Shown here piece by piece: positions 4,386-41,366 of a DNA stretch of 64,000 nt (positions are counted from its first letter, which is position 1; each line of letters starts with the position of its first letter). A program made the position numbers and the translations under genes. The notes under the pieces are model-generated. The model saw nothing but the letters and a program-made list of their open reading frames with translations, was not told where the DNA came from and ran no database searches. The stretch comes from Isoetes taiwanensis (taxonomy: Eukaryota; Streptophyta; Lycopodiopsida; Isoetales; Isoetaceae): positions 15,058,245 through 15,122,244 of the forward strand of contig JAJEKV010000001.1 of the NCBI GenBank assembly GCA_021234155.1. Direction: 5' to 3'.

Positions 4386-4440
4386 CTGGTGCATCAATCC
4401 TTTTTTCCCTAACATCTCCGTTAGTGCATCGTTGGAGTTT

Positions 4441-6378: not shown

Positions 6379-6433
6379 CCCTCCCACCCTTTCCCGATTG
6401 TAAGTATACTTTATTTGTTAGTTATTATCTAGT

Positions 6434-7231: not shown

Positions 7232-7722
7232 AAGCAGGCATGAACCAGTAGAGGAAAGGCTATGAAGTAAACATGTACCGTTTTGAACAATTACATGTCA
7301 TGAACAATCTAGCAGCAGCATGGCACGACATATTGTGATGCAATCTGCAACCGAGGCAGTGAAGTAGACCTAGCATATAATGCCTCGATAAAGGTTCCCG
7401 TGCCAATTTATTAGCTTATCATGGCGAACCTATCAACATGTGAAAACCAAAGATTCTTATCTGAAATTCATACCGTCATGCATTGAATTGAATTGATGTG
7501 TCACCATGGTGGAGTTGTACAGAACAGATATATAAATTGCAGACATATTGAACACGTTTGACCCATAATAGAATTCAAATTCATAAGGCAGATATTAAAG
7601 TGCTGCAGAATGCTCTGGCTAGCTGGCTGGCTTGGACTTGTCTAAAACACAATTAGCATACGGTTAAAATGTGTACTGCTGAACATGTTAACAGCATATT
7701 TAAAAGTCCCAATCTAGGATTA

Positions 7723-21559: not shown

Positions 21560-21740
21560 AAGGAAGGAAGGAAGTTTATTTTAACGTCCATGGCCAGAGG
21601 CCTATGAGACGGTACATGCAGAGACAGGCAAAAAGCCAAAAACCCCAACACCAAAAACAAACAATGTAACTGTACAGTAGATCCCTACTACCGGGATGAA
21701 AAAACCCCCACTTGGGAGGAAAAACCCTAACAGTAGGCTC

Positions 21741-22295
21741 TCAAATACCATGCCTCCAAAGAGCAAGTCTGACGGCCGAAATCTGCAGGATGTAAGCTCC
21801 CAGTCGTGCTACCATAGGTGATGCGAGTAACTGATGTAGCGGTGTGTCAGAGCATCTAAGATTAGTGTGCACTGCTCGGACATGGGCATATGCTGGGCAC
21901 CGCTGGAGGGCATGGTGCTCATCCTCTATCACGTGCATCTCACAACACTGACATATCCTCTCCTCCCTGGGGATCCCGTGCCCGCCATTCACCCCCCAGC
22001 GACCTGTTTCAATTCTGAGGTAATGGGATTTCGTCCTTATGGCAGCAATAGCTCTCCGTTTCTTCACAGAGATGTGTGCTTTCAAGTCCCAATGGGGTCC
22101 ATGCTCAAGGCCGGGATTAATCTGAGCATGATAGTGCTCTGTCTTGGGCTTTGCAAGAGTAGAGGCATCCCACAGAGTGGTAGCATAGCCCGCATCCAAT
22201 TGCCCATTCTCGCGCATCGAATGCCCGATTGCCACCATTTGTTGGTAATCCATAGACCACCTCCTAAACCATCCCTTACGATTTGCTCGTGCCAT
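21741..22295 (-). CDS. LINE B: C-terminal RT-protein segment with Cys/His motif
   Basis: A 184-codon open segment, the longest intact part of this LINE's ORF2. It ends in a C-X2-C...H-X4-C type motif (ERICQCCEMHVIEDEHHALQ then RCPAY), as found at the C-terminus of many plant L1 reverse transcriptases, where it is thought to bind nucleic acid. The upstream part carries WSMDYQQMVAIGHSMREN. It belongs with the reverse transcriptase pieces at 22.5-23.6 kb but is separated from them by frameshifts. Confidence 0.7.
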   Translation of the reverse strand: MARANRKGWFRRWSMDYQQMVAIGHSMRENGQLDAGYATTLWDASTLAKPKTEHYHAQINPGLEHGPHWDLKAHISVKKRRAIAAIRTKSHYLRIETGRWGVNGGHGIPREERICQCCEMHVIEDEHHALQRCPAYAHVRAVHTNLRCSDTPLHQLLASPMVARLGAYILQISAVRLALWRHGI

Positions 22296-22499
22296 ACCCT
22301 CTTCATTTGGGGGGCCTGCGTTAACAACACGGCCTATGAAGGCAAGCGATGCTCATCCATCCCATCCACCTTATGGAAGCAAGTAAGATGCTGCGCATAG
22401 CGTATCTTTGTAAAGGCGAAACCCGTCTCATACAACAAAATCGTCTGATGCGGTGTCCTTCACTCCCAAGCTATATGTCAAGAAAACTTTTCGCACCCT

Positions 22500-23600
22500 T
22501 TCCAACCTATCCCGCGTGTTTTGCTAAGCTCTTTGGGCCCCAAACCTCCACCCCATATAGCAGCACCGGCTCGACCAAAGCCCTAAGCGGTGTGCTCTCC
22601 TCGCCCGATCCACAGAGATCTATCCAGGCAACACGCTGCGTTTTGCACTGCATATAGAGCCTTCCGGACGACCGGCTCTCCTCTCCACACACTCATCCCA
22701 CAACATGTTAGTAGTGAAATCAATTCCTAGATACTTGAAGCTCCGCACCATCTCCACTTTCTCGCCCCCGTAATATAACTCAGGGATAGGGTGTTGCGAG
22801 GACAAGATCGAGAAGCTTAGTTTTGTGCAAGTTCCTTTGTCATTCCGTTGCCCCACGTAACCCCGATGGCATCCAAATGCTGCATACCTGGCGGGCCGTG
22901 TGGGCTAGCAAACCTACATCATCCGTGATATAGTAACCGGCTCCACAGAGGTCGACGATAATTGCACCCGGCTCCCCATGGTCTTTGCATCCACGTCTCC
23001 AAGCTATCAATGTACAACCCAAAAGCGTTGGAGACAACGGCAGCCCCCGCTTAACTCCCATAGTGCTAGCTACCGCCCGATCTTCATAAGGCAAGTAAAG
23101 CATAAATCCCATCATAAAGCTGGTGCACCACATTCTCGCAACTCTGTGGAACTCGCAATTCTTGAAACCTCTCGCCATAGCATGTCTGGGGGGGACGATA
23201 TCATATGCGTCTTAAAATCTACAAAGCGGCAATACAAGTCTCGGCGCAAGATTAGGCTTGCCTCCATCAACACTCTCAAAGTGAAGATATGGTCGGGTCG
23301 TGGAGTGAGTGAAAAAAGCTTTGCCTGGCCAATTTGCCCCCGCCTCCCTCGCCCACTTAGTGAGTTTCTTCTCCACCACCCCTGCCGGGAGCTTTGCAAA
23401 CAGCGAGCTTACCATAATCATCGGTAATTCAGCCGGCTCATCCGTATTACCGGTTTTATGAGCGGGAACAACCTTACTAACCATCCACTCTCGGGGAGCC
23501 CTGCATTTCGAGCACGGTTAATGATCACCGCGTTAGGGGCCCTACCACGAGATGGGCCACCCCATTTTCAACGGCTTCGACTGCGGCCCCTGTAAAATCC
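22500..23600 (-). pseudogene. LINE B: reverse transcriptase domain, frame broken
   Basis: The RT palm is visible as GVKRGLPLSPTLLG (about 23058-23017) followed by YYITDDVGLLAHT, where TDDV stands in place of the usual YADD catalytic box. Further on, SFKYLGIDFTTNMLWDECV and EPVLLYGVEVWGPKSLAKH are typical L1 thumb motifs. RT copies LINE RNA into DNA at the nicked target. Several frameshifts separate the parts. The changed first residue of the catalytic box may be real or a base error. Confidence 0.75.
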
Positions 23601-24079
23601 TTTGCCTTGCCATTCGCCCGGATGCGAGACCTGCTGGACATCCTCCCCGGCGTGAGCTGCGGGACCTCTCCTACTTGATCCAGGGACCCGGCATTAGCTC
23701 ACGGGGGTCATATAACTCCCGCAGCGGTGCATCCATTGCTCCACACTTACATTACCAGCCACCTAACACCTTATGCCAAAAAGCTTTTGGCTCGCCATGA
23801 GCATGTCAAAGCGGGCACTCACGGGTTTCGCCATAATCTCCCCTTCTTGGCTTTTAGGAAGAGCTTATAGTCTTGCGAGGGGCGTGTGGCGCAATTGTGG
23901 ATCTATGAAAGCGCGGTGGCTCTTTAGAGCCTTGCAATCAGCATCAAACCCACGGGTTCTCGGGGAAAATCTTGGCGGTGTCCCTCTTTGGAGGGCCCTT
24001 CACCGCAAAGGAAGCACCAAGAAATGCAGCGGCGCCCTCACCACCATGCACACTGTCTTGCGGTGTGTGGAAGCTATCA

Positions 24080-25056
24080 AACCCCACAGTAACTCCCGCA
24101 CCAACCAGATTCATCTGTCCCTCGCCCGATAGCGTGGGATGTATGGTAATCCTCCACGCCCTCTTTTGGTGTCTCCACTATTGAGTGCTCCCAATTTGCG
24201 TGACATAAAGCGGGTAGTGATCGACAAAGCCTCCTCATCCCCGTGCTTGTGCCAATGGACAAGTGTGTAACCATGTCAAGTCTTTGCTCGGGGATGCGAA
24301 GGTAATCCAACACACTAGCTCCCCATCCCCGCCTATCACTCCCGCAAGTAACACCCCCGAAAGTGTGGCCATGGCCGCATACCATTACAAATTACCATGT
24401 CAAAAACCTGGCGAGCTGGACCCGGCTGCACGCCAAATGGTCTAGCCACCATATCACGGAGTGGTGTATCTTTGAATAGCGGGTGTCTCAGCCAAAGCGG
24501 ATCGGCATTAGCGTCACCTTGGAAGGTCACCGACCGCAAGCAAGCTGCCGCCCATTTGAGCATTGAAATCTCCTAGCAAAACACGTCGCCCTTGCTGTCT
24601 ATAGCGGTCTATGTCATCATACGGTTCCTATCGGCATCACGGACATCTATGTCCGCATCATGTACCGGTAGAACTTAGAGCTGCATGGGGAATGCAAAGA
24701 CTAGCAAGAAACAATGGGACATGACCGGGCTCTAATACCATTACCCACATGTAGCGGTTAAATGCATCGGACTTACGAAGTGTGATCTTGCATGCTAAAG
24801 CGTCCCTAAAGTAGCAAGCCACTCCACCGCACCCGCGTGCGTCGCCATGGCTCATTAGCAAGTGAGAAATGCCGATATCCTCGAATGTGCGGCAATCGAT
24901 GCCCTTCATACTCCCATGTCTCCCCGGGAAGGCGATGTCCATGTCTGTCGCGATCCCATTCAAGCCCGCGCCCTTACGCCACGCGAAGCCCCTACAATTC
25001 GAGGGGAAACAATGCGAAGACACTTTCCCTATCTTTGAATGCGGTTGTGGACCCAT
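24080..25056 (-). pseudogene. LINE B: AP-like endonuclease domain, frame broken
   Basis: Pieces of the APE-type endonuclease that nicks target DNA for LINE insertion. They include RGCGGVACYFRDALACKITL, AFNRYMWVMVLEPGHVPLFL and, in another frame, the C-terminal part around SIGTSTGM. In copy C the same C-terminal segment shows the conserved SDHYPL motif. The 31439-39717 transposon is inserted within this domain in copy C, and this copy gives the uninterrupted site (GCATCATGTACCGGTAGAAC at about 24655). Confidence 0.75.
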
Positions 25057-26165
25057 CGAGTGCCGAGGGGCCCGGCTGCGTGGTTGGAATTTCGGGCAGC
25101 CCGCTCATGGGACCACGATGGATGTCTTTGCCGATTGTGGAAGGCCTCAATCCGCCCTCTCCACGGCTCGCCTCGGTGCGATGCCCCTGGACGCTCGCGC
25201 TGCGACGCCACTGCTCGTGGGAGTCTTTGCCTCGAATCGCTGTCTGACGAGGAGGCACATATACCTTCATCTTGCCATTAACTAAACCAGCAGCCCCTCC
25301 AGCTTGTCGAATCTCTCTTATCTTGACCAACTCTTGGCTTCTTTCCGTTGTTGTAGTGGCGTGAGATCCGGATCGGGTATATGGACGTACCTTTCAAAAG
25401 CGAATCGAGTGTGGTGCAACAACAAAGATTTTGCCTCCCAATCCAAGGCGCAAACTTAACTAGCCGAGAGGCTTCATGTTCGGTCCTCCGACCCTGATTG
25501 GACTCTTGATAACCAAATACTGTAATTGGAGCTTTGCAAGTACCAGGGTGGTAAGCTTACCTGGCAAATCCTCGCCTTGCTCCTCCGGCAATCCCCGCAC
25601 AATAAGGTTGAGGCGTGCACGGATGTCTTGCTCCTCGCGGTACGCTGATTCCACGAGCCACCTCGGCCTGCGGCATGGGGGTGCTGGTGCGCGACGCGGC
25701 GTGGTGCACCACGGACTCGTTGCACCTCCATTCGGAGGTCCCGCATCTCTTCTTTAACGTAAGTGGGCCATATGGTTCTCTATATGTGAGCATCTTCGAC
25801 ATCTCTGCGCAATGCGCCTTTGCTTCATCAAGGAATTGGAGCCCCCGCACCGCTTCCACATCCTTTTCCTTAGCATCTATCCGACCAGCCATGCTTGTGA
25901 CTTGTACAACTTTGTAGCAACCCCTTCATGTCGGCGGGTGCTTGCGCCATGTCTTCTATCCACTACTGGTGGACCTTATCCAAGCGGTGCCCCATCTCCG
26001 TGACTAGCTGCGTTGTTGCTTGTATCTTCCCTCTTATCTGGTCATGAGCCTTTTGGGCTCCCCTGCAATCATAATCCCCGAGCCGAACTTCCACAAAGGA
26101 AATTCGCTCCTTCTGTTGGAGAAGCTGCTTCTTGAGCGCAGCCCCTGGGTGATGCCTCCAAGCTT

Positions 26166-28309
26166 TGCAATATAACTCTCTATTTTCATATTGAAATAAC
26201 GTATTATTTGAAAGATACAAATATAATTAAGCATGAACTATTTATGGTCCATAACTAGACCAATTGTATAGAGCATATATCTCTCACTAGCCCTATCTAT
26301 TTTGTCCCCATAATGATACCATGGTTTCTTACCTTTGATAACATAATCTTTCAAAGGTGTGAGTGGAAGTCCATGTAGATTCAATTGGTGAATAAGTACC
26401 CCATAAATTCTCAGTTGTTTGTGCTTAAACATTGCTCTCAAATTATGGAAGCTCGTTTAGCCAATTAATTTTATCCTATAGAGAATTGTACGCATAAACT
26501 ATATTCTAAAGTTGAGAACAAAATTGATTAAGATGTTGTCTCTATTAATTTTTAAACTTCCAGTCCTATGGACCAATAATGGTGCGCAAGTGGGCGCACA
26601 TACTTGATCTAACTTGACTTTTTGTAGTCATAAACTTCCATATTTTGCTTTGAATTTTTTTGCATTGATTTCATGACATGGGACATTTTGAGAATGTGAT
26701 TTTTCAAAGTCATATCTCAAGGCATAAATCTAGAATAAACATAGAAGATATATTTGAATTTAATGCTATAAAGTTTAATCCAAATCTCACGGTTATGATC
26801 AACAAATATTTTCATTACTAAAGTAAATCAGAAGCTATTCATATCCCAAAATTCAACATGAGGTCAATTAACATAAGAAAGTTATTGATTTAAATGGACT
26901 TATGGACTAGTAATGGGCTCATGTACAGAAACCTTTCTTGATTTCTTGTCACCATGTCTTTTGCGTTTTTAATGAGCTTGTTTTTGCATTGGTTTCATAT
27001 CATTTTGAACTTTCATACTATGATTTTTTGGAGGACATCATAAAGTAAGTTTTGCTCTATATGGGGAAATATTAATCATTATTACAAGTTACCTAAAATT
27101 GAGATCAAAAGTGAAAGTCCAAACATCAAATTCAAGGCCAACCAACATTTTTATGGGATGGAGAAACTTGTCAATTGCTTATATATCAAATATTAGCTCA
27201 AAATGCATTTCCCTGTGAAAGTTGTTGTATTTAAACTACAACTGCCTTCTGGGAACCATAATTGGTTCTGAGGAGGCAGAAAGCAGTTTTGACCCTGTCA
27301 TGTTTGAATGGCCCTGTCTTTCTTCACAGACTTCAGATTGACATGTGATTTTTTGTTTTATTTTCCTTATCTCGTGTAGAAAAATATCATGGTAATCAAA
27401 AAATTTGAAAAAATCGTTTTTGTCGAGACCGTTTGACTTTATGTAAACATGAAGCTTTTAATACTTGACCCCCCTGAGTTTGCTAGAGCATAACTTACAA
27501 GAATGGAGACATATATAATTTTAGGTATTTTTCAAGTGGACCATAACTGTCATATATGAACTTCTAGGAAGGGTTCGAATAGATTTTGTACCATTGATTT
27601 TATATGAATTTTAAAGTGAAATCTTCAAATGGACCATTTCTGGTCCATCACCTGACCACTTTAGTGTTAATGCGGGTGCTGGTGTGGTTGATGCTGGCTT
27701 CAAGAAACGAATGTTGTTTGCTGAGGTCGTTTGCCGTTCGTGGAAAATATTGATGATGTAGTTACATGAAAAGGCCATTCTGACAATGCTCCTCCAGTTG
27801 CTATATCCATTCTGTCGAAGCAATTCTGGAGAGTTAAACTGTCTTTTTATTGGCCACAACCTTATTAGATTTGCCTTACTCTGTTATAAATTTCTTGGAG
27901 TTTCATACATTGGCTAGAATTTTCTATGTCCCTTTTGTAAGCAGATATACCTTCTGCTTTATTTGCTATGTTTTTGTAGACTGATGTAGGTCCTGCATGC
28001 CAGTTCAAACCATGATCTGTACACTGCTATGTGATCAAGATGCTTTATTATACTAAACTGCATAGTGTATTAGTGTTGTATTGCAGAATACTGCAAGGCA
28101 TACCTTTTATTAATGAATGATTGAATTTGTGTGCAAGGCACTTAAGTTTTGAAGGCAACGGTTTTCTTCCAGAAGGAAAATAATATTCAAAGCGTAAAGA
28201 GAGTGAACATAAAGCAGGGTTATGTAAATGAGGCCCTTAAACTTTAGTGAGAGTATATTCCTTAAATTAATATAAAGCCTAATGGAGCAAGGAGATCACT
28301 TGAGCCTTT
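26166..28309. repeat. Segmental duplication spacer, copy 2
   Basis: Near-identical to 19418-21559. It contains the right end of the piggyBac-like element (TTAA at about 27672) but no left end, showing that this copy arose by segmental duplication and not by a second piggyBac insertion. Confidence 0.9.
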
Positions 28310-31300
28310 AAGGAAGGAAGGAAGGAAGGAAGGAAGTTTATTTTAACGTCCATGGCCAGAGGCCTATGAGACGGTACATGCAGAGACAGGCAAAAAGCCA
28401 AAAACCCCAACACCAAAAACAAACAATGTAACTGTACAGTAGATCCCTACTACCGGGATGAACACTTGGGAGGAAAAACCCTAACAGTAGGCTCTCAAAT
28501 ACCATGCCTCCGAAGAGCAAGTCTGACGGCCGAAATCTGCAGGATGTAAGCTCCCAGTCGTGCTACCATAGGTGATGCGAAGGTGGCGATGTAGCGGTGT
28601 GTCGAGCATCTAAGATTAGTGTGCCTTTGCTTTCGGACATGGGCATATCTTTGGCACAATTTGGAGGGCATGGTGCTCATCCTCTATCACGTGCATCTCA
28701 CAACACGACATATCCTCTCCTCCAGGGGATCCCGTGCCGCCATTCACCCCCAAATGACTGTTTCAATTCCGAGGTAATGGGATCCCGTCCTTATGGCAGC
28801 AATAGCTCTTCGTTTCTTCACGAGATGTGTGCTTTCAAGTACCAATGGGGTCCATGCTCAAGGCGGGATTAATCGAGCATGATAGTGCTCTGTCTTGGGC
28901 TTTGCAAGAGTAGAGGCATCCCGCAGTGGCGGCATAGCCCGCATCCAATTGCCCATTCGCGCGCCGGAATCTGCCCGATTGCCACCATCATTTGGTAATC
29001 CATAGACCACCTCCTAAACCATCCCTTACGATTGCTCGTGCCATACCCTCTTCCGGCCCATTTGGGGCCCTGCGTTAACAACCGCGACTGTGGAGGCAAG
29101 CGATGCTCATCCATCCCATCCACCTTATGGCAAGTAAGATGCTGTAGAGGAATCTTTGTAAAGGCGAACCCGTCTCATACAACAAAAATCGATACTGCGA
29201 TGCGGTGTCCTTCACTCCCAAGCTATATGTCAAGAAAACTTTTACGCACCCTTTCCAACCTATCCCCGTGTTTTGCTAGCTCTTTGGGCCCCAAACCTCC
29301 ACCCCATATAGCAGCACCGGCTCGACCAAAGCCCTAAGCAGGGTGTGCTCTCCTCGCCCGATCCCGCAGAGATCTATCCGGCAACACGCATTTTGCACCT
29401 TTGCATATAGAGCCTTCCACCTGACGGCTCTCCTCTCCACACACTCATCCCACAACATGTTAGTAGTGAAATCAATTCCCGGATACTTGAAGCTCGCACC
29501 ATCTCCACTTCACGTCCCCGTAGCCAATAACTTTCAGGGATAGGGTGTTATTGCGAGAACGAGGATCGAGAAGCTTAGTTTTGTGCAAGTTCAATGTCAT
29601 TCCGTTGCCCCCACGTAACCCAATCGAGGGCATCCAAATGCTGCTTTGCACCGCTGGCCGTGTGGGCTAGCAAACCTACATCATCCGATATATAATAACT
29701 GGCTCACGAGGTCGTCGCATCGAGATAATTGCACCGGCTCCCCCCATGGTGCCGCATCCACGTCTCTCAAGCTATCAATGTACAACCCAAAAGCGTTGGA
29801 GACAGCGGGCAGCCCCGCTTAACTCCCATAGTGCTAGCTACCCGCCGATCTTCAAAGGCGGTGCGGCATAAATCCCATCATAAAGCTGGTGCACCACATT
29901 CTCGCAACTCTGTGGAACTCGCAATTCTTGAAACCTCTCGCCATAGCATGTCTCTGGGTATCATATCATATGATCTTAAAATCTACAAAGCAACAATACA
30001 AGTCTGTCGCGCATTAGGCTTGCCTCCATCAACACTCTCAAAGTGAAGATATGGTTCGGTCGTGGAGGAGTGGGGGAAAGCCTTGCTCGGCCAATTGCGC
30101 ACCCCCGCCTCCTCGGCCCACTTAGTGAGTTTCTTCTCCACCACCCCTCGCCGGGGAGCTTTGCAAGCAAATGAGCTTACCATAATCATCCGGTAATTCG
30201 CCGGCTCATCCCAGATTACCGGTTTTATGAGCGGGAACAACCTTACTAACCATCCACTCGGGGGAGCCCCTCGCCGAGCACGGTTAATGATCGGATTAGG
30301 GGCCCTACCACGGATGGGCCACCCCATTTCAACAGCTCGGCCTGCAGCCCCTGTAAATCCTTTGCCTTGCCATTCGCCCGGATGCACGAGACCTGGCTGG
30401 ACATCCTCGCGTGAGCTGCAGGACCTCTCCTACTTGATCCGGGACCCGGCATTAGCTCACGGGGGTCATATAACTCCACGCAGCGGTGCATCCATTGCTC
30501 CACACTTACATTACCGACCACCTAACACCTTATGCCAAAAAGCTTTTGGCTCGCCATGAGCATGTCAAGCAAAGCTCACGGGTTTTACGCCATGTATCTC
30601 CCCTTCTTGGCTTTTTAGGAAGAGCTTATAGTCTTGCGGGGCTGTGGGCGCAATTTGTGGATCTATGACAACGGCGGTGGCTCTTTAGAGCCTTGCAATC
30701 AACATCAAACCCACGGGTTGTCGGGGAAAATGCGCGGTGTCCCTCTTTGGAGGGCCCTTCACTGCAAAGGAAGCACCAGCAGCTGCAAGCAGCGCCCTCA
30801 CCAGCCATGCACACTGTCTTTGCGGTGTGTAGAAGCTATCAAACTCACAGTAACTCCCGCACCAACCTGATTCATCGCCCCCCTTACGATGGCGTGGGAT
30901 GTATGGTAATCCTCCACGCCCCCTTTTCGGTGTCTCCACTATTGAGTGCTCCCAATTCAGCGTGACATAAAGCGGGTAGTGATCTGACAAAGCCTCTTCA
31001 TCCCCTGTGCTTGTGCCAATGGAGAAGTGTGTAACCATGTCAAGTCTTTGCTACCGGGCGAGAAGGTAATCCAACACACTAGCTCCCCATCCCCGCCTAT
31101 CACTCCCGCCGTAAGTAACACCCCCGAGTGTGGCCATCGGCGCATACCATTACAAATTACCATGTCAAAAACACGGCAGGAGAATTTGGACGGGGCGCAC
31201 GCCAAATGGTCTAGCCACCATATCACGGGAGTGCAGGTGTATCTTTGAATAGCGGGCCGTCTCAAGCCAAAGCGGATCGGCATTAGCGTCACCTTGGAAG

Positions 31301-31438
31301 GTCACCGACCGCGAAGCAAGGCCCGTCGAGCATTGAAATCTCTAGCAAAAACACTTGTCCCTGGCTGCCTATAGCGGTCTATGTCATCATGAGTTCCCTA
31401 TCTGACATCACGGACATCTATGTGCGCATCATGTACAC
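28310..31438 (-). mobile_element. L1-like LINE copy C, 3' part
   Basis: The downstream part of a full-length LINE on the minus strand: TTCC tail at about 28336-28310 (longer than in copy B), 3' UTR, zinc motif, reverse transcriptase and the C-terminal endonuclease (EEALSDHYPLYVTLNWEHSI, about 30980). It stops at ATCATGTAC where the transposon begins and resumes at 39718. Frames are heavily broken at CTG/CAG sites. Confidence 0.85.
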
Positions 31439-31464
31439 GAACAAGATTGCGTATTAAGCGGGAG
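31439..31464 (+). repeat. Transposon left terminal inverted repeat
   Basis: GAACAAGATTGC followed by GTATTAAGCGGGAG. It pairs with the inverse of 39692-39717 at about 21 of 25 positions. The adjoining LINE sequence ends at ATGTACAC, where AC may be a distorted reading of CTG. Confidence 0.7.
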
Positions 31465-31754
31465 CAAATCATTGAAACGAGGCTTAAAGGAATATTCCTT
31501 AAAGATTCCTTTTTTTTTTTTATAAAAAGGGGTAAAAACGAGGTTAAAAAAAAAAAAAAGATGCATGAAATTCTATTTTGACCCCCAAAAGTGACTAATT
31601 TTTTGTGCAACGAAAAGAATTGTTTTTAAAGTGTCATTTTTCTTAGCAAATAGAATGTTCTTGAAGTATATTTTACGTGAGAAACCCTAATTTCAGAGGA
31701 TAAAATATTCAACAAAAATTGAAGTTAGTCCCAGATGCTTAAAGCGTAGTATTC

Positions 31755-34700
31755 TCAAAATTTGAAGATAGAATCTTCATATTCATATGCAAAATTCTGA
31801 TCTTTTTCTAAGACTTCGTTATGTGCAAAAGTGTGAGGAGTGATGAAGGAGGGATCCAGGGCGTCATCATGCTCATTTATGCCATCCTCATCACCTTCAC
31901 TTTTTACATTGTCACTAGAGGAAGTGCTTGAGTTATCTTCCTCATCACTATCAATAGATGGTGTAGCATTGCCACCACCTTCTTCATCCTCTTCTTCGTA
32001 ATTACAAGCTTTTTTAAGCAAATTGATAGTCCTCTGGCGTGAGGCGATTGTCGATTTCAATTTAAAATCATAGCACAATATAGTCCGTCATTAAGGATCA
32101 GCTCATCCCTACAACCCACCTTCTTGGACTTTCTTCCTTTTCCTTGGCTTCTCATTTCTAACTCATATCTACCTTCAAAAGCATTTTCTGAGCGTGTTGC
32201 AAGCCAATGAATCTTGAGTTTAGTGACTAAACCTTCCTCCTTGACTGTGTCAAGCACTTTTGCTATCCAGAAAGGTCGACCTTTGTCATCCTCCTCAGTT
32301 GGAAGAGCAATTAGCATACCCTTGGTAATTTCTGTGATATTACCTTGAGGTTCATTCCTGCGTCTTGGTCAGAGGTACATGACTCGATCCTCATCTTCTT
32401 CTCTGCGGTGCTAATGTAGCTTTGCTTGGACTGCTTAGTCTTTGGGGTTGATGGAAGGTGTTAGGCCATCGAAATGGTTCTTGCAAGCTGTCTTAGAGCT
32501 ACATTTTTTTCACAACAATTTTTACATTCGAGAAAGAAATTACTCCACCACATCCGATCTTCTTCTAAGAAGTACTTAAAACGAGGAAATTCCATTTTCA
32601 ATGGCTTTTAAGGATGACTCTGGGGTACTTTTCTTACGCTTGGACTCCTTAGGATTTTTGAGAGGAAGTTGTTCAAAGACGTTCTATGAAGGAAATAATG
32701 CGGAATATATTTAAGGAAGCGTAATCCCTCTTGTGGACTCCAATCCTTAGTTGTGGTATACTTTTTCCCTGTAAGAAACTCGGCCATCCTTCAAGTAGAA
32801 CTTGATGTGATGTTGAAAGGTGAGATCATTCAACTTGTTCACGGCTTGTTCTCAATGTCGAGCGTTGAGAGAAAACAAACTCTCTGAAATCAGCAGTCTC
32901 TTTAAGAAGATCGATCACCGGGGTGGGAGTGTAAGAATCTTCAATAATTTGAACTAATGTAGGAAGGGAGAAAGCCTTCTTCCTTCTAAAAATACCTAAA
33001 AATCTCTTTGAACATCGGTCAATCTGATCATGAGTGTGGCCTACAAGTAAAAAACCGAGCTTCACTTTTCTAAAGATCCCTAGCTCCACTAACATAGCCA
33101 CGGTATGCAAAGAGTGTTTGATTCTTGTTCTCCCTTGTAGTATTGTCAAGTTGCGTAAAAAGCGTGGTGGTAATTGCTCTTGCTCGCCGACAGGGACTGG
33201 TAAGAATTGTAATTGTGAGGTTGGTCACCATGCAAGTTTGGATATGTCAAAATACTTTGCACTTTAGACTTCCTTTGAAGACCATAGCTCCTACAAGGTG
33301 GACCTTAACAAAACATTCCTCGGCACATCTTTAGGAATGTTCAAGAAATGTGGTAGAGTAGTTTTTTTTGGTCCATTCCATCAATCAATGAGACATATAT
33401 TGCGGTGGGACGTTCAAGAGCTTTTTTTACGTGTTTGGCAAGCTTTCTTCTCTCTCTTTGCTTGTTGTTCACGATGCGGCAAGGTTACATTTGCACAATA
33501 TCTCGTAGAAGAAATAAGGTCAAAGCATTTTTTAAAACAAGTGAGAGATTGAAGAACATGAGCTTACTTCTTTTCGACCCTGCGTCTTTTGCGGTTTCTC
33601 TTTGACTTTTTAATTACGCACACCTTGAGCAAAGCGGACATTACATTGTCTCACAGGAATTTTTCAATTCACTTTTCCACAACGGTGAAGTGTGAGTAAG
33701 AGATGTCTTTGAAGTTGAGTGCAAGTCTCTTTGTACTCATTAAAAACATTTTTGGTGATGTTATCGGTTAAATGATACATGTTCTTTGTTAGGCGACTTC
33801 TCACATGTTTCTCTAAAATATTTCTCCATCCATGACCGGCCGGCAAGGGCATGCATGGTTACAACTCTTCTTGGTCCACAATGATCATCAATTGCTGGAT
33901 TTTTGTCGATCTTTTGTGTATTCTAGACATTACGGTAGTCCCTAAGCGGTGGACAACCATAAAGCATTTTCGGCAAACTTCTTGGCCGGTTAATGTAGTG
34001 CAAGAAGGTGTTGCGGTCTGGCCTTACATGATAGGCCAAGTAGGCATTCTGGTCAGCCAATGTCATTGAGCTGTAGTTGTCTCTAATTGCTCGTAATTTA
34101 GACATGTTAAATTTGTTGATGCAACCCAATGCAGCGGCATTTACTTCTTAAAAGTCTTCTCATTTTATGCTCGTCCATAAGGTTTCTTCTTCTTCTGAGG
34201 AAGAGCATGCTCTCACACCATAATCCACCTTGAATTTTTTGGTGGGTGGCTAGAGAAGCGTGTAATCTCGTTGCACTTTGTTGGTGTCTTCATCTTACAA
34301 GAGAGTTCTACTCACGGGGGTGACCTCCCTCGCCCTTAGTGGTGTGCTTGTAGAGGAGAACAAACCCGTGAAGTGGTATGCAGGAAAAGGCGGAGGTGCG
34401 GTGTTGAATGAAGGAGATGGGCGGCATATGATGTGCCAATGAAAGTTGTTGTAAGCGTCTTCACGGGGAGTTCGATCAAACATCTCTCTTATAGCAGACC
34501 GAAATTACGCAAACCCATGTGTCCTGCGTTTGTGTGAAGAGGAGTAGATCTTTGCGGGGTCGCGTCTTCATTTGTAGTGAAATCGTGGTGGGAGAAGCGA
34601 TGGAGAATCTCATGATCTTGAGCGAGCTGTATTCTGGCATGTGTAAGTGAAGATGGAGAAACAACAAGCGGCGGAGGTAGTGTTAGAAAAATTTCTTTGA

Positions 34701-35006
34701 GATCGAGCCATTGTAGTGTCGGGGATGGAACAAATGGTGGTGGAAGATTGCTACGTGCAGCAATGGTGAGGGTTGGAAAGGTGGTGGCAGCCGGTTTCCT
34801 ACTGGACTTGGAGAGGGTTGGAAAGGTGGTGGCAGTCTACTAGTTACTGGACTCGGAGTGTCTTCTAGAAGTAACAAAGACCTTGTCGAGGTAGGTGTTG
34901 AAGAAGCATCTCCGTCTTGTGTTCCATCTGAAGTAGAGGTACTTGGGCAAACAAATGGTGGTGGAAGTTTGTTCACGAAGCGGTTAACCATGTCAAACAA
35001 CTGCAA
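31755..35006 (-). CDS. DUF7869-like probable transposase, multi-exon, frame broken in places
   Basis: Read on the minus strand. The N-terminal exon (35006-34683) follows a TTTTTTGCAG acceptor and is proline-rich (repeats of LPPPFQPSP). Further on, LRAIRDNYSSMTLADQNAYL (about 34110-34040) matches the usual start of this family. The core has a DNTTRENKN segment (about 33150) and LLVGHTHDQIDRCSKRF (about 33060-33005), both hallmarks of DUF7869 proteins, thought to have an RNase H-like fold. The C-terminus has a short SH3/BAH-like segment (PFWIAKVLDTV, HWLATRSENAFEGRYELEM) and an acidic tail. At least three frame changes occur. Being the only transposase-like gene between the inverted repeats, it probably mobilises the element; this is inference. 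Confidence 0.6.
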
Positions 35007-35322
35007 AAAATTGTGGGCTTGTTACTAACTCATAAGTCGATTCGACTAATGATATTCGAGAATACAAATGCTATTCTGGAATAGTATTGTGTGTGCAGCA
35101 TTTGCTGTGTGTGTGCAAGAATGCTATTCCAGAATACACTTATCCAGAGTGTTTGGACAAGACGTATTCCGCATCACATAGAAAAACACAACCCGAGTTG
35201 CCTACTTTAAAAAAGGAAAATTCGGCGCCTCGATTCGTATTGGCTTCGGAGATTTAGTCGCCAGCCCGAGCGCCTTCCGATCAATATACATTTGCTGTAT
35301 TCCGATTCACATAGCGAAAACA
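35007..35322. promoter_or_regulatory. Region between divergent transposon genes, with degenerate palindromes
   Basis: About 320 bp between the first clear exon of the minus-strand gene and the ATG of the plus-strand gene. It holds three degenerate copies of the GTATTCYGGAATAC palindrome (35051-35065, 35071-35084, 35124-35137) and two half-copies near 35163 and 35298. No certain TATA box is visible. Repeats placed between divergent promoters could act as shared operator sites. Confidence 0.45.
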
Positions 35323-38300
35323 ATGGACAGGTAAGCATGTAAAGTACATAGTACGTCTTTCTTTTGTTTTCTGATTTGCTTCTGTAGGCCAAAGTGTATT
35401 CCGGAATACACTTTGCCCTTCAAAGAGCAAAGTGTATTAGGAATACACTTTGCACTTCGCCGATGGGCAAAGTGTATTACGGACTTTGCCCATTCTGGCG
35501 AGAATGCAAAGTGTATTCGGAATACACTTTGCCCTTCAAATGAAGAGCAAAGTGTATTAGGAATACATTTTACTCTACGCTGAAGGGCAAAGTGTATTCG
35601 GAATACACTTTGCTCAAATCTCAGATGGGAAAAGTGTGTAGGAAGAATACACTTTTACTCTCGCTGAAGGGCAAAGTGTATTCCGGAATACATTTTGCTT
35701 GTAGTTTTGAGAACGCTTGCTTTTTTCACTAAAATAACACACTTTTTAGCTGCAACAGACAACTTTTTAAGATAAAAATTACTCTTTTGAGTCCAATTAA
35801 GGCACAAGAAATTGACTTAGACTGACAACATTTTAGCTTGTTTTCCTGTCTTTTTCTGGCCTTTAGGGCACAAGATTAGTAAATGTTATTCTGGAATACA
35901 AATTTCGTTTGAATTTCTGTCTTAACATGGTTGTTTTAAACGTTTCAGTGGCAGGGAAGAAGGAAGCAAGAGGGCATCAAAGAAACTTCAGAAGCCCAAG
36001 CGTCCACACCCTCAGAAGCACACCGCTGACACAGATGTGCCCGCTATTTATGAGAACTATCAAACGCTATGGTTCGTGACCAGGGGTGCAGATGGAAAAT
36101 ACAAACCTGCTTGACGTTTTTTGTATCGCCGTAAAAATTTTGGTAACAAAAAGGCGCCCGACTCGAGTTTGTTAACCTTGGGACAATAAAAGATGTCTCC
36201 GAGGTTGCCGGACAAGGAGGTCAGGTGGGGAGGCTATCCTTCAAGACCTCCCAAGGCTTCATTGTTGTGGACATCGCATTCTTTAAAATTGTCAGTGTGC
36301 AACCCACAAGCACTATACAAATTCTTTTTCACACTCTGGGACAAAGCGAAGGTTGTGTTCATGTATTAGGCGAGGTTTGTTTCCAAAGACAAGCGAGGAC
36401 TTTCCTGTCAGTGAGTCCGAGCAATCAGATGGAGAAAGATCACAATCACCACCTTCTGCTAGTTCTTCAGGGAGGTCATCAGATAAAGGTTCTGAGGAAG
36501 AAGAAGAGGAAGAACCCCCTGCGCGGCCAAAGAAACTTAGCAGGCCAAGACTTACCATAGCTGCCAAAGAACCAAAGAAGCGAAAAGTACAGCAGCTTGA
36601 AATCACAGAAGTCCCCGAGGGAAGCACAAAAAAACAAAAGGGAAAAGGAAAAGCTCCCGGGGTAGCAATAAAAGAAAAGAAAGTTGATAAGACCTCCGAA
36701 AGAATGGAGGTAATAAATGCAGAAAAATTTGTACAAGGGGTGATCTATCTTCCTGTAACTTGCATGAGGCTGCCCCCAAAGAATGAAGCTGGTGAAAGGC
36801 CGCTTCAGGTTCGTAAAATTTATGCCGACCACTTAAGGAACCTGAAGGATAGAATTAGGAGCAATCCTAATGCTCATGTGGCGCCAATAGTTGTCCTTGT
36901 TGACAGGGAGCAATGCAACACCCCCCAGGACTATGACAGAGAAAAAGCAGACACTTACACTCACTACGTCTTGGGAGGAAATCATAGCTTCAAGGCAAGA
37001 AGGCAGCTGTACAAGGAAAAAAATAACCCCGGTATCTCAGAGTCCCGTATGCGCGCCTCTCCGTGGTCTCACCAAGCGAAGAAGCAAAAATCGTTGCCAA
37101 CACACACAATGGCGACAACGAGTACAAATTAAAGATGAGCTTTGTCGACAAGATCCGGTTCATGCACGGGGAGTACATGATTTTTAAAGAAAAATATGGG
37201 GAAGACTTGAAGAAACCAGTACTCCTTAGAACCCGAAGGAAGCTCAGCGATGGAGTCTTTGCCTGAAGTACGACGAGGCTAACAAACGGCAGTCACTCAT
37301 ACCGCATGACAACTGGTTTCAATTAGCCTTTAGAGACGGCAGAGTAAGTTTCTTTTGTATTCTGGAATAACTTTCTTGCCCACCGACTCGACTGACCGTT
37401 TATTCTTGTCTTGATTTGGGACCTACAAAACGAGATATTTACCATGTTCGAGCGTGGTGAATTGAAAAGTAAAGGAAAGGTCTCAGAAAAGAAAAAAGGG
37501 TCTGATGTCCCAAAAAAAGAAATGACGATAACAGTGTGGAGAGAAATGCAGGGCTTCACTGACATGGACATACTAGAAAGGCTACTGCAGAAGGTCGTAG
37601 ACAAAGAATTTACTCTAGAAGAAATGTCCAAGGAACTGCACAGGTAACAACGACAGAACTTTAGTCTAAAGTGTATTCCAGAATACACATTCCCTTACAA
37701 GCCGAAGCCAAAGTGTATTCCGGAATACACTTTTTTTTGCTTTCGACAAAAGTGTAAAAGGAAAACTTTTGTATTCGAATACACTATACACTTTTAAACT
37801 TAAGGAATACACGTCGAAAGCAAAAGTGTATTCCGGAATACACTTTGGTTTCCTCTTCTTGGTGTTTTCGTTTTTCGAAAAGAAGTCTTATTTTGTTTCC
37901 TTGTTGTTGACTTCCAGCCAAAAAAACGTTATTACGTGCCAAACGTGTTTAATGGAGCAAATTGAGCGTGGGACAGGGGACGGTGCAAAGAGCTCTATCC
38001 CATTGCTACATCCGACGAGCGTATTATTCAATACGCTCCAAATTTTGAGGGCTGGGTACGTGTTTTTACTGTTTTTAGAGTTTTCCCTTTGTGTTGCATG
38101 AAGCTAACTTTAACCATTAACAGAGCAAGAAGAAGAACAAGGACCTGCCAGAAGGTTTTATGCACTGGTGCGAACGGCCCGAGAAGAGAGGACTCTAGCG
38201 GACGGCGTGTTGTGTAGATCTTTGAGCCGTCCGGACTACGAGAGGTTTTCTATGTTCGATCAAAATAATTTTTATTCTATCATTCATGGGGACTGCACTA

Positions 38301-39176
38301 AGTTGCCAGGAAGTATAAAGCCACAAGATTTTACATTGGTTATAGCAGACCTGCCATATGGTTTTAAGATGAAGGATAGCCGCTACGACGATCAGCCTTT
38401 TAAAAACTCAGAATTTAATGCTTTCGTCGATGGAATTAAGCAGGTTACCACAGCAAAACACTGGCGTCTTGTTGTGTTCCATTCAAGCATGCAGGCCGGC
38501 CTTGTGGAAGCTACTTTCAAGAACCACTTCGGTTCCCCTATGCAAGCCGGTTATGAAAACATGGTCTGGTGAGTCCTACAATCAAAAGTGCCGTTCATGT
38601 GTTCTTTCTTTCAAGTTTTTATTCATGGTTGCAATTGTAACCCGTCAGGGTCTATTCTGGAATACGTACTTACTATTCTGGAATACGATCTTGCAGGTAC
38701 AAAACTAATATTAACTACCATGGTGGAGGACCGAGGCTGCTGAGCAAGGTTGAGTATCTCCATGTAGCTTACTGGAGTTTCGACGGGAAGCGTACCATGG
38801 AGCACTTCAACACTGCAACCTGCCAGAATTTTTCTAATGTCCTAGAGTTCCCAGCAGTATTACAGAAGCTCCAGGACCCAAGTGCACAAGGCAGAATTGT
38901 AAATCATTATCAGAAGCCACAGAAGCTAATCAACCATATTCTGGACATGTTCTCACGTCCAGGAGATTGGGTCCTTGATGCTTTCTCTGGCTCTGGTACA
39001 ACAATAGCATGTGCACTTAAAAAGGGCCGTAATTGTGTTGCTGTTGACATTGATAAAGAGGCTGTAGACTTCATCAAGATGAGGTTGTCTGCTCTACCAA
39101 CTCTACCAGATGAAAATCAAGAGTTAGGAGCTAAATCATCATCAGATTTTGCCAAGATGACATCCTACGAGATCTG
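35323..39176 (+). CDS. ParB-like domain fused to N4C/N6A DNA methyltransferase, spliced
   Basis: Exon 1 is only ATGGACAG (35323-35330) with donor GTAAGC; the acceptor TTTCAG at 35948 joins in frame to MDSGREEGSKRASKK. Later exons: about 36150-37343 (acidic SEEEEEEEPP, basic KKRK signal, ParB-like core with VLGGNHSFKARRQL, then EEAKIVANTHNGD), about 37434-37643, 37918-38055, 38124-38568 and 38697-39176. Introns end in AG and begin with GT. The last two exons join in frame as MVW-YKTN and form the methyltransferase. Known family logic: beta-class enzymes carry the catalytic box before the AdoMet box, as here. Breaks: TGA near 36110, frameshifts near 37045, 37260 and 38200, and TGA near 37950. 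Some are likely sequencing errors. Role: DNA base modification in the nucleus, guided perhaps by the ParB-like part. Confidence 0.75.
35331..35948 (+). repeat. Palindrome array in intron 1 of the methyltransferase gene
   Basis: Eight close copies of a 28-bp perfect or near-perfect palindrome lie between 35391 and 35698. The core is GTATTCCGGAATAC with arms GCAAAGT and ACTTTGC. Copies start near 35391, 35427, 35465 (half), 35506, 35547, 35587, 35630 and 35671. Separators of 8-25 bp are related (CCTTCAAAGA, CTTCGCCGATGG, CTACGCTGAAGG). Variants with TTCGGAA or TTAGGAA lack one central base, which may be a reading error at methylated CCGG. A further core sits near 35890. Confidence 0.9.
36720..37135 (+). 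other. ParB-like domain of the fusion protein
   Basis: The segment starts near MEVINAEKFVQGVIYLPVT, contains HVAPIVVLVDREQ and the signature GGNHS (36974-36988), and continues after a one-base frame change into PSEEAKIVANTHNG. ParB/sulfiredoxin-fold domains have a conserved G-x-H/R-R-x-x-A motif that binds nucleotide. GGNHSFKA is the eukaryotic-type variant, and the following EEAxxxAxxHN segment is also seen in ParB-like proteins. No separate helix-turn-helix part is obvious. Prokaryotic and phage proteins often fuse this domain to DNA methylases, which supports the gene model. Confidence 0.65.
37660..37850 (+). repeat. Second palindrome cluster, in a methyltransferase-gene intron
   Basis: Palindromes with core GTATTCCRGAATAC at about 37668-37690, 37710-37733 and 37823-37846, with a degenerate one around 37771-37810. 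The intron runs from donor GTAACA at 37644 to acceptor TTCCAG at 37917. Single cores also occur in other introns: TATTCTGGAATA at 37359, 38653 and 38674. Confidence 0.85.
38240..39176 (+). other. Methyltransferase domain, two exons, intact
   Basis: Exons 38124-38568 and 38697-39176 splice across a 128-bp intron (GTGAGT...TTGCAG). The N-terminal part has IIHGDCTKLP and the catalytic box DLPYGF (38348-38365), a D-x-P-Y form of the DPPY/SPPY motif. The C-terminal part has DAFSGSGTTIACALKKGR (motif I, AdoMet binding, 38977-39030) and VAVDIDKEAVDFI (motif II-like). This IV-before-I order is the beta class, which makes N4-methylcytosine or N6-methyladenine. Plant cytosine-5 enzymes and MT-A70 enzymes have different motifs, so this is not a usual plant methylase. 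L replaces the first P of the box; activity is uncertain. Confidence 0.85.
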
Positions 39177-39672
39177 ACCTCCTTTTACAAGCTCTCACGG
39201 AAGATGAAGCTACCTTTGCGAGCTCAAAGAAGTAGCTCTAGCTACTATTCTGAAGAGGCGTTGACACCAGCAAAGATCAAACAGTGCCAAAGGAGCAAAC
39301 TGAAGAGAAAGAAAAAGGTGAGACGAGCAAACCACACACTGAGGACTTCGATTTAGACCTCTGAGTTTTCGTTTGCTATATTATTTATTATTGGCTGCAA
39401 AATACTGCCATACTTACTGTACTGAAAGAAATTAATAAAAAAAAGTTTTACTTTTAACGTATTTTGGATGTCTTCGACTTCTTAGTAATGTTTCTGGTGT
39501 ATTAGTGTCTGCAATTCTGCCATTTTCAAGTGCTCCTTTCTACAAATGCGAGATTATCATTTTAAAGGGCCCCAAAATGCATGATATAATATTTTGTTCC
39601 ACTTAAAATCCCAAGCTTCTTTTGAAAATGATCATTTTTTCAATCTTGGTGTTTTTTTTAAGGGAATCTTTG

Positions 39673-39717
39673 AAACGGGAGTGATGCAACACTCCCGTTT
39701 AATTTGCAATCCTGTTC
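39673..39717 (-). repeat. Transposon right terminal inverted repeat with subterminal hairpin
   Basis: The hairpin GAAACGGGAGT-gatgca-ACACTCCCGTTT (39673-39700) is followed by AATTTGCAATCCTGTTC, the right inverted repeat. The left end has only one arm of this hairpin (CGGGAG). Confidence 0.7.
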
Positions 39718-40050
39718 CTGGTAGAACTTAGAGCCTGCATGGGGAATGTAGCAGCTAGCAAGAAACAATGGGACATGACCAGGCTCTAATACCATTACCC
39801 ACATGTAGCGGTTAAATGCATCAGACTTCTGAAGTGTGATCTTGCATGCTAAGGCATCCCTAAAGTAGCAAGCCACTCCACCGTACCCGCGTCTGCCATG
39901 GCGCTCATTAGCAAGTGAGAAATGCTGATATCCTCGAATGTCTGGCAATCGATGCCCTTCATACTCCCATGTCTCCTGCAGGAAGACGATGTCCATGTCT
40001 GCATCGCGATCCCATCAAGCCCGCGCCCATACGCCACGAAGCCCCTACAA
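39718..40050 (-). CDS. LINE C endonuclease, N-terminal part
   Basis: This is the start of the APE-type endonuclease. NCRGF (about 40050) and MDIVFLQETWEYEGHRLPDI (39996 downward) carry the QE metal-binding motif. RGYGGVACYFRDALACKITL and RYMWVMVLEPGHVPLF follow. The domain is cut at GSKFYQEQD by the transposon insertion and continues at 31438. The part after MDIVFL is open, so this LINE may have been fairly young when interrupted. Confidence 0.8.
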
Positions 40051-40159
40051 TTCGGGAAACAATGCGAAGACACTTTCCCTATCTTTGAATGCATTTGTGG
40101 ACCCATCTCGAGTGCCCGAGGGACGCCGGGCTGTGGTTGGAATAACTCGGGCAGCCTGC

Positions 40160-41366
40160 TCATGGGACCCTGATGGATGTGCTGCAGTTGTGGAAGGCCT
40201 CAATCTGCCCTCTCCCTGGCCCCGCACGGGTGCGATGCCCCCGGACCGCTCGCCCCTGCTGACGCCACTTTGTTTCGGGGAGTCTTTGCCGCCTCCGAAT
40301 CGGAGGAGGCACATATACCTTCATCTTGCCATTAACTAAACCAGCAGCCCCTCCAGCTTGTCGAATCTCTCTTATCTTGACCAACTCTTGGCTTCTTTCC
40401 CGTTGTTGTAGTGGCGTGAGATCCAGATCCAGGTATATGGACGTACCTTTCAAGCGACTGGTGCGGTGCAACAACAAAGATTTTGCCTCCCAATCCAAGA
40501 CTGCAAACTTAACTAGCCGAGGCTTCATGTTCGGTCCTCCGACCGTGATTGGACTCTTGATAACCAAATACTGTAATTGGAGCTTTGCAAGTACCAGGGT
40601 GGTAAGCTTACCTGGCAAATCCTCGCCTTGCTCCTCCGGCAATCCCCGCACAATAAGGTTGAGGCGGCGTGCCTGGATGTCTTGCTCCTCACGAAGTACC
40701 CGCCTGATTCCCTGAGCCACCTTGGCCTCTGGCATGGGGGGTGCTGGTGCAGACGACTGTGGTGCACTACGGACTCGTTGCACCTCCATTCGGAGGTCCT
40801 GTATCTCTTGCTGTAAGTGGGCCATATGGTTCTCTATATGTGAGCATCTTCCTGACATCTCCTGCCTGTCTGCCTTTGCTTCATCAAGGAATTGGAGCCT
40901 CCCCCGCACCGCTTCCACATCCTTTTCCTTAGCATCTATCCGACCAGCCATGCTTGTGACTTGTACAATCTGCTGTAGCAACCCCTTCATGTCAGCCCGT
41001 GCTTGCGCCATGTCTTCTATCCACTACTGGTGGACCTTATCCAAGCGGTGCCCCATCTCCGTGACTAGCTGCGTTGTTGCTTGTATCTTCCCTCTTATCT
41101 GGTCATGAGCCTTTTGGGCTCCCCTGCAATCATAATCCCCGAGCCGAACTTCCACAAAGGAAATTCGCTCCTTCTGTTGGAGAAGCTGCTTCTTGAGCGC
41201 AGCCCCTGGGTGATGCCTCCAAGCTTGCCAGCTTAGCCTGGAGGGAACCGGCCTATTCCTGTACAACCCTGATTGCCTCAGCCTGTGATACCTGCTCTGA
41301 TGGGGACGAGGTATCCAAATTGCGGGCTCTTTTCTTCAACGCATGCATGCTGTCAGGGGTTGCCAT
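40160..41366 (-). CDS. LINE C ORF1 protein (coiled coil plus RRM-like)
   Basis: The longest ORF of the family here (40160-41011, 283 codons from MAQARADMKG) covers a coiled coil (residues 1-70), a basic linker, an RRM-like core starting RLNLIVRGLPEEQGEDLPGK, and the C-terminal motif SIYLDLDLTPLQQRERSQEL. ORF1 proteins bind LINE RNA. Upstream the same frame continues through a TAG (HQ-stop-WIED) to 41266, and a likelier initiator ATGGCAACC lies at 41364-41366, followed by MATPDSMHALKKRARNLD and a second TAG. Both stops would be CAG with one C-to-T change, the expected result of deamination at methylated CAG. The C-terminal part below about 40300 is frame-distorted. Confidence 0.75.

Follow-up and report, generated by a model that had tools for sequence, protein, structure and literature searches.

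Does a plant DNA transposon that carries a DNA methyltransferase of bacterial type use it to write a mark on its own copies? The question is raised by a 64,000-nucleotide stretch of contig JAJEKV010000001.1 of the quillwort Isoetes taiwanensis (the window, by which we mean this whole stretch). There, a first-pass annotation, made from the sequence alone, described a self-contained mobile element with a methyltransferase (methylase) gene beside a gene for a DUF7869 protein, and proposed that the element writes its own DNA mark. We searched the Isoetes taiwanensis genome (1,658,258,908 bases in 1110 contigs) for further copies and observed that families of this element carry, in their non-coding parts, arrays of family-specific palindromes built on a common frame, TAT-N6-ATA. 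These arrays are new relative to the first-pass annotation, and the proposal of a self-written mark is strengthened by them.

Self-comparison of the window agreed with the earlier description of an insertion of about 8.3 kb with inverted ends in a repeat resembling a long interspersed nuclear element (LINE), of which an uninterrupted version lies at 24655. Positions 18468-24665 aligned with 25215-31436 at 92.7% identity, and 24657-26165 with 39709-41226 at 89.7%; because the self-alignments stop and resume there, the repeat is seen to be broken at 31436/39709 and unbroken near 24655. At the insertion point, the unbroken copy reads CATGTA-CCG-GTAGAAC. The inverted ends, GAACAAGATTGCGTATTAAGCGGGAG and the reverse complement GAACAGGATTGCAAATTAAACGGGAG, are identical at 22 of 26 positions, as counted by hand. 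Of the boundaries given earlier, 31439-39717, the insertion itself stood and the exact ends did not, the true element lying one base inside on each side (Table 1). Both ends were visible in 4 other copies of the window family (L014, L017, L027 and L028), with 4-bp duplications, read by eye, of AAGC, CTAA, AAAC and TAGC, respectively; the diverged copies L031 and L034 have ACTT and TCTA, respectively, and their terminal inverted repeats (TIRs) likewise start with AACA. A perfect 4-bp target duplication is thus present in 6 of 7 two-ended copies, and in the window copy 2 of the 4 bases agree. TIRs were not found within the fetched span of L029, L030, L032 or L033. We rejected the possibility that the insert is cargo of the LINE or another retroelement, since it has TIRs and target duplications of its own, and also a piggyBac-type insertion at TTAA, since TTAA lies inside the TIR and the duplicated 4-mers vary between copies. 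Directly inside the right TIR (window 39640-39716) is a hairpin-like sequence, AAACGGGAGTG...CACTCCCGTTT, which was present in 8 of 8 right ends examined (one with a mismatch) and absent from 11 of 11 left ends.

The window element is one decayed member of a large group of Isoetes DNA transposons, and in this genome its 2 genes move together. The methylase domain PF01555 gave 1,443 first-look candidates in the genome, and all 150 that were scored were above the cut-off; DUF7869 gave 9,903, of which 150 were scored, and had no match in 14 control genomes. For the methylase-anchored set we took a 10-kb locus around each of the 20 best-scoring PF01555 hits, a choice that biases the exon for binding S-adenosylmethionine (SAM) toward conservation. 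In these loci blastn recovered copies of the window element that range from partial to complete, and by protein search a DUF7869 gene lies divergently beside the methylase in 15 of the 20, those with no recognised partner being L010, L011, L018, L024 and L025. For L018 and L025, a DUF7869 hit of the top 150 lies 12.3 and 10.3 kb away, distances consistent with later insertions. L018 also has an open frame of 1286 amino acids between its catalytic and SAM exons (about 3551-7408 in element orientation), which is probably a later insertion. When the 2 top-150 lists were crossed, 17 pairs fell within 7 kb, all 17 divergent and with an offset of 4.9-6.2 kb; since only 0.19 were expected, we rejected chance neighbours. 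Within 15 kb there were 24 pairs, 22 of them divergent. The reverse test used 6 10-kb loci from the DUF7869 list, L029 to L034, which lack a partner on the methylase list, and divergent ParB-methylase sequence was found in 6 of 6, in L032 through the ParB-like part alone and in L031 as weak, scattered matches. These loci are diverged families, with identities to L027 of 31-65% in the catalytic and SAM exon matches and 40-49% in the ParB exon. By these results the claim of a self-contained mobile element with methylase and DUF7869 gene is borne out: other copies share the ends, the 4-bp duplications and the divergent genes, and in complete copies both genes lie within the ends, so that the inverted repeats bound the whole segment and not a part of it.

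In the window copy, the 2 divergent spliced genes are as had been described. One matches PF25273 (DUF7869) on the minus strand (32826-33224, expectation value E 8.2e-19) and the other PF01555 (N6_N4_Mtase) on the plus strand (E 3.8e-18; 66.7 bits against a cut-off of 26.7); they diverge from about 35.0-35.3 kb, and both are split into exons, reading frames and homologues indicating several introns. With the proteins P0013 and P0028, tblastn covered 34420-31818 of the DUF7869 gene in several frames, and in the sister copy L027 this gene consists of 2 open exons. Both genes of the window copy have frameshifts, of which the first-pass annotation had said nothing. The genome assembly is based on nanopore reads corrected with Illumina data (PMC8566536), and some of these frameshifts may therefore be residual assembly errors.

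Central to our argument is the distribution of the palindromes. In the window family, the 12-mers TATTC[CT]GGAATA and TATTCC[AG]GAATA occur at 210 sites in 21 copies, whose element spans total 155.6 kb (from first to last match, later insertions included), and at none in 53.6 kb of flank; the density of GAATAC is 3.55 per kb in the element versus 0.41. Coding matches, which make up 79 of 209 kb, contain none of the 210 sites; coding sequence is defined here by protein matches, such that unmatched exons count as non-coding. The window copy itself has 11 sites, in the promoter region and in introns 1, 3, 4 and 6 (Table 1). At 2 of 3 intron sites tested, conservation is far above that of the surroundings: the intron 3 site is 0.93 identical among 21 copies versus 0.73 in the remaining aligned columns, which are partly exonic, and the intron 6 site at 38653 is 0.92 identical among 19 copies versus 0.55 for other columns.

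Other families have other palindromes. The inner 6 bases of the frame are TCCGGA in the window family and AAATTT, GAATTC or GCGCGC elsewhere; L029 and L030 have TATGAATTCATA, L031 to L033 have TATAAATTTATA (the AAATTT class), and L034 has TATGCGCGCATA. With one mismatch allowed, none of 94 sites in these 6 loci fell in coding matches, and shuffled sequences gave 0-0.15 sites per locus. L029 and L030 also carry 7 one-mismatch sites each of TATAAATTTATA; the GAATTC and AAATTT palindromes differ by one base per half-site. Six more pieces of 1.5 kb, taken at the predicted position of the DUF7869 promoter, each had an array (5 of TATAAATTTATA and one of TATGCGCGCATA), which brings the TAT-N6-ATA array to 12 of 12 DUF7869-anchored loci. 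In all 12, the commonest exact 12-bp palindrome was present 5-22 times, and simulations (60 per locus) gave at most 1; in this test the background segment bgL0 held one palindrome twice, and the segment bgL3, which contains an element, is no control. In locus L020, the exact palindrome showed no excess over the null (2 versus 2), and 7 sites of a looser pattern were present. Genome-wide, with the reversed pattern as control in parentheses, we counted 3,720 (0) sites for GTATTCCGGAATAC, 12,556 (17) for GTATAAATTTATAC and 1,551 (0) for CTATGCGCGCATAG; these counts cover 3 of the 4 classes, GTATGAATTCATAC being outside them.

The arrays also have characteristic spacings, as judged from intervals between sites of up to 130 bp. 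In the TCCGGA class, 88 of 137 intervals are 41-42 bp, and in the AAATTT class at least 66 of 111 are 27-33 bp; the 10 intervals of the GCGCGC class include 39-42 and 61-63 bp. Spacing in these 3 classes is close to whole helical turns, and the 8 intervals of the GAATTC class, 100-115 bp, are a poorer fit. The class of palindrome follows the relatedness of the proteins. In its DUF7869 sequence, L033 shares 94% and 86% identity with the other 2 AAATTT-class 10-kb loci, 65% and 53% with the 2 GAATTC loci, and about 49-50% with the window family (L027 and L009) and with L034.

The methylase exons are under strong purifying selection. We estimated the ratio of nonsynonymous to synonymous substitution rates (dN/dS) by pairwise Nei-Gojobori comparison of frame-patched alignments, dropping pairs with saturated or tiny dS, in samples of up to 21 copies (13 for DUF7869, where one query was the C-terminal piece of its exon). 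Median dN/dS was 0.14 for the catalytic exon (60 pairs), 0.20 for the ParB exon (78) and 0.09 for the SAM exon (160), and 0.34 (78 pairs) and 0.38 (77) for 2 stretches of DUF7869 exon. Among pairs at dS 1.2-3, the medians were 0.07 (16 pairs), 0.14 (37) and 0.07 (103) for the 3 methylase exons, respectively, and 0.17 (19) and 0.26 (23) for the DUF7869 stretches. From these medians, constraint on the methylase in the lineages that spread was no weaker than that on the presumed transposase. In the window family, motif IV, D[LI]PYG, is present in 18 of 21 copies and the SAM motif, DAFSGSGTT, is kept in 20 of 21.

In methylases of the beta class, motif IV canonically precedes motif I and has the form (D/N/S)PP(Y/F/W). 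The Isoetes protein, in which a ParB-like domain is joined to a DNA amino-methyltransferase of bacterial type, has the beta-class order. Among curated NCBIfam models, the best for the Ginkgo, fern and liverwort relatives is the adenine methylase CcrM, with scores far below the CcrM cut-off. Since the best curated model is CcrM and motif IV begins with D, the modified base, as predicted from sequence, is more likely N6-methyladenine (6mA) than N4-methylcytosine (4mC); DLPY of motif IV is similar to the NLPY of KsgA/Erm. Upstream of the catalytic exon is a ParB-like stretch, which is conserved in Ginkgo and Riccia proteins; the L027 exon matches TIGR03764 with E 3.8e-4 over 136 amino acids, and PF20188 matches the domain with E 0.0059, both below cut-off.

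How might these parts work together? We propose that the ParB-methylase, as a dimer, would bind the palindromes of its own family and methylate DNA there, most likely at N6 of adenine, and that the element would thereby recognise and mark copies of itself. Either the mark or the complex bound at the sites might hold the element promoters open against host silencing, or might license transposition. The family palindrome looks like an address tag for such self-recognition and marking. A 2025 survey ties 6mA in eukaryotes to transcriptionally permissive chromatin (PMC12695648). We favour the self-mark because of this link, of the methylase domain, and of a likeness to the VANC21/VANDAL21 system that is described below, and we judge it somewhat better than an even chance that the ParB-methylase marks the element at its family palindromes and so keeps it open or licenses it.

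Several observations weigh against this proposal. Motif IV is DLPYG or DIPYG rather than the canonical DPPY, NPPY or SPPY, and catalysis may accordingly be altered or lost. Two Ginkgo paralogues (P0001 and P0004) carry DIPHG or DISQG at this position, through decay or domestication. The ParB-like assignment is weak, and the PDB sequence hits for the methylase protein include no ParB chain. Where the motifs aligned in the diverged families, the DIPYG of motif IV survives in L029, L030 and L033 but not in L031 (3 of 4), and the SAM motif survives in L029 but is garbled in L030, L033 and L034 (1 of 4), so that the sampled copies of these families are mostly broken, through decay or assembly error. 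Pairs at dS 0.05-0.2 have median dN/dS of 0.10-0.58; the higher ratios of most close pairs are as expected of dead copies. Intron 6 has a second consensus site, whose conservation does not exceed that of its surroundings (0.54 versus 0.60). The methylase and DUF7869 locus tags listed for Riccia and for Adiantum are not neighbours. Finally, about half of the window-family sites carry TG or CA for the central CG (216 versus 107 and 103 as 10-mers, in which a CG site counts twice), which is as expected if the host methylates these sites as 5-methylcytosine (5mC); any protection by the element is therefore not permanent.

Other explanations of the palindromes have to be weighed against the self-mark. 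In bacteria, Dam methylation times transposition of Tn10/IS10. By analogy, the palindromes could be sites for the DUF7869 transposase, and methylation could time transposition, for instance to follow replication. The co-mobile genes do diverge from one promoter region that holds sites, and in L034 there are sites near the ends of the element (1101 and 9601, the ends being at 729 and 9956) and between DUF7869 coding matches (3309 and 3413). Sites of transposase action would be expected near both ends, however, and those of the window family are concentrated within the methylase gene and in the promoter that both genes share, away from the ends; we regard this explanation as rather unlikely. Alternatively, the ParB-methylase may only bind, spreading over or looping the arrays in the manner of VANC or of a partition complex, with catalysis minor or lost. 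The non-canonical D[LI]PYG, the ParB-like domain, the near-helical spacing in 3 of 4 classes and the same arrangement of motif arrays for VANC all speak for mere binding, but the SAM motif kept in nearly every window-family copy and the strong purifying selection on the catalytic exon do not, and we consider this version unlikely. If the methylase were an autoregulator or copy-number control that used the palindromes to repress its promoter, and thereby held the element in check, this would account for the sites that the sampled families have at or close to the divergent promoter and intron 1. Such a role agrees poorly with the high copy number that was reached, as indicated by the first-look candidates for the 2 domains, and with conserved sites deep in introns 3 and 6, and seems to us improbable.

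Tandem arrays whose copy number varies among copies are also what one would see if the palindromes were neutral minisatellites that chance to lie in introns. Yet the single sites of introns 3 and 6 persist where the surrounding intron has diverged, one frame is common to different inner sequences, and none of the 12 DUF7869-anchored loci lacked an array, so that we think this explanation very improbable. There is next to no likelihood of a chance nesting of 2 unrelated elements, or of contamination: the earlier description rested on one visible copy, and this idea is now refuted by the many contigs with the same gene arrangement and by the complete copies that hold both genes between the same ends. 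Recent bacterial contamination was rejected in its own right, in that the genes are spliced, the copy number is high and the strong hits named to organism are from land plants.

The closest parallel known to us is with VANC21 and VANDAL21 of Arabidopsis, where arrays of a private motif lie in the promoter and introns of the transposon, and where VANC21, the anti-silencing protein that this transposon encodes, removes host methylation (PMC5735166). In both systems a transposon protein goes with a short private motif that is dense, often in tandem, upstream of genes and in introns, and whose sequence differs between related families (PMC5735166); as in VANC-type systems, the private motifs of the Isoetes elements are dense in their own non-coding parts. 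The differences are also clear. The VANC21 motif, YAGTATTAY, is not palindromic, the account of VANC in PMC5735166 mentions no methylase domain in the parts available to us, and for VANC21 both binding and methylation loss have been proven (PMC5735166), whereas the Isoetes system is a proposal from sequence; VANDAL elements are of the MuDR type (PMC12730594), and the neighbour in Isoetes is DUF7869. The accessory gene being a ParB-like methylase, we do not class the Isoetes element as a VANC member.

Related kinds of element are already known. Fungal DNA transposons with TET/JBP genes also place a DNA-base-modifying enzyme beside a transposase; that enzyme oxidises methylcytosine whereas the Isoetes enzyme class adds methyl groups, target duplications are 7 bp (Kyakuja) or 8 bp (a Dileera family) rather than 4 bp, and the available portions of that report mention no private palindrome arrays (PMC12730594). 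Retrotransposons with cytosine DNA methyltransferases (DNMTs) and DIRS elements with Dam-like adenine methylases are likewise mobile elements with a DNA methyltransferase, with an occurrence in a charophyte alga; they are retroelements, and their enzymes are of the DNMT or Dam type rather than a beta-class ParB fusion (PMC5890265). The N4CMT of bdelloid rotifers is a bacterial amino-methyltransferase captured by a eukaryote; it has a chromodomain and is described as part of the host machinery for silencing transposons, whereas the Isoetes enzyme is part of a transposon (PMC8885841). Sola DNA transposons, known from a moss, have 4-bp target duplications and TIRs and are mostly 2-9 kb (PMC10741241). 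The Isoetes elements have such duplications and TIRs. We found no open-access paper on 'DUF7869', and no plant DNA transposon with an N6/N4 methylase among the best open-access matches (titles and abstract openings, most subscription journals and bioRxiv lying outside the collection).

Relatives of the methylase suggest that it occurs widely in land plants. Both protein searches scored the 8,000 candidates that shared most words with the query. A read-through methylase query gave 12 hits, 6 of them strong (E 1e-72 to 1e-37) and from Ginkgo (4), Riccia sorocarpa and Adiantum nelumboides; proteins with the eukprot prefix Gb_ we take to be Ginkgo. The other 6 had E 1e-4 to 5e-4, and it is at this level only, about 1e-4, that some hits are named bacterial-type methylases. 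A profile search gave 61 hits, including 6 Ginkgo proteins, one of Ceratopteris and many unnamed; absent from this list are the proteins from Riccia and Adiantum that the first search had found. Phage relatives are distant (536 records, with 24-28% identity among the best 12), and scans of viral contigs with the methylase and DUF7869 proteins confirmed none. The DUF7869 query gave 43 hits, those named being from Ceratopteris, Riccia, Adiantum and Chara. Conserved in this protein are IDGMDQKK, LQLDNTxRENKN and GHTHDxID, which are candidates only for the DDE/D sites of an RNase-H fold; comparison with PDB by sequence gave no credible relative (2 hits, E 0.39 and 0.61). The DUF7869 protein is a probable transposase, a role that we infer. 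In Adiantum nelumboides, one gene model (P0042, L7F22_061815) fuses an integrase core of retroviral type (PF00665) with DUF7869, perhaps an artefact of annotating nested elements.

To our knowledge, few cases are understood in which a transposon encodes its own escape from DNA methylation, VANC among them, and the Isoetes element differs in that its gene is for a methylase and not for a demethylase or a protein that only binds. The genome sequence itself shows the presumed address, of which 4 classes were seen. We would suggest tentatively, and at rather less than an even chance, that land-plant DNA transposons have a portable, re-targetable form of epigenetic self-recognition, in which the specificity of a ParB-like methylase co-evolves with an array of private palindromes and the enzyme writes a mark other than 5mC (6mA or 4mC) on copies of its own element so that the element stays active. 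If so, vascular plants would have a real transposon-borne writer of 6mA or 4mC, with at least 4 specificities in one quillwort genome, and a eukaryotic counterpart of the self-marking by methylases of restriction-modification systems; were the specificities real, the proteins might be useful as tools for sequence-specific DNA methylation. Questions that become testable are whether any enzyme of plants makes 6mA or 4mC, whether eukaryotic transposons use bacterial methylases for self-marks, and how enzyme and target would co-evolve.

Table 1. Features of the element and its flanks, in window positions
Feature	Position	Strand	Remarks
Whole element, AACA...TGTT	31440..39716	.	8,277 bp, in LINE-like repeat; ends set by other genomic copies
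Left flanking 4 bp CACG, degenerate target-site duplication	31436..31439	+	Sequence
Right flanking 4 bp CCTG	39717..39720	+	2/4 identical to 31436-31439; sequence
Left TIR	31440..31464	+	Comparison with other copies
Right TIR	39692..39716	-	Comparison with other copies
DUF7869 gene, probable transposase, frameshifted	31818..35020	-	5' limit approximate
ParB-like/N6-N4 methyltransferase gene, several exons, frameshifted	35323..39177	+	Exon structure matched in sister copies
ParB-like domain stretch (YVLGGNHSFKARR)	36515..37340	+	Matches L027 exon
Catalytic exon, motif IV DLPYG	38124..38568	+	Splice sites by eye
SAM-binding exon, NHYQKPQ and DAFSGSGTT	38697..39177	+	PF01555; splice site by eye
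Two palindrome sites (TATTCTGGAATA, TATTCCAGAATA), divergent promoter region	35072..35136	.
Palindrome array, intron 1, unit about 40-42 bp	35390..35697	.	Full sites 35397, 35679 and degenerate copies
Palindrome site near end of intron 1	35887..35898	.
Palindrome site, intron 3	37358..37369	.	Columns 0.93 identical, 21 copies
Palindrome array, intron 4	37674..37840	.	Sites 37674, 37716, 37829
Two palindrome sites, intron 6	38653..38685	.	38653 is the aligned consensus site

Scans of the window for Rfam families and tRNAs gave no matches. The LINE-like repeat shows a periodicity of about 6.75 kb (18468, 25215 and, past the insert, 40303), and is a tandem arrangement rather than a set of isolated copies. 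Elsewhere in the window there is a direct repeat of 4.2 kb, 94% identical between 1-4156 and 7969-12134, and a near-palindrome of 0.5 kb (77%) at 16492-16994.

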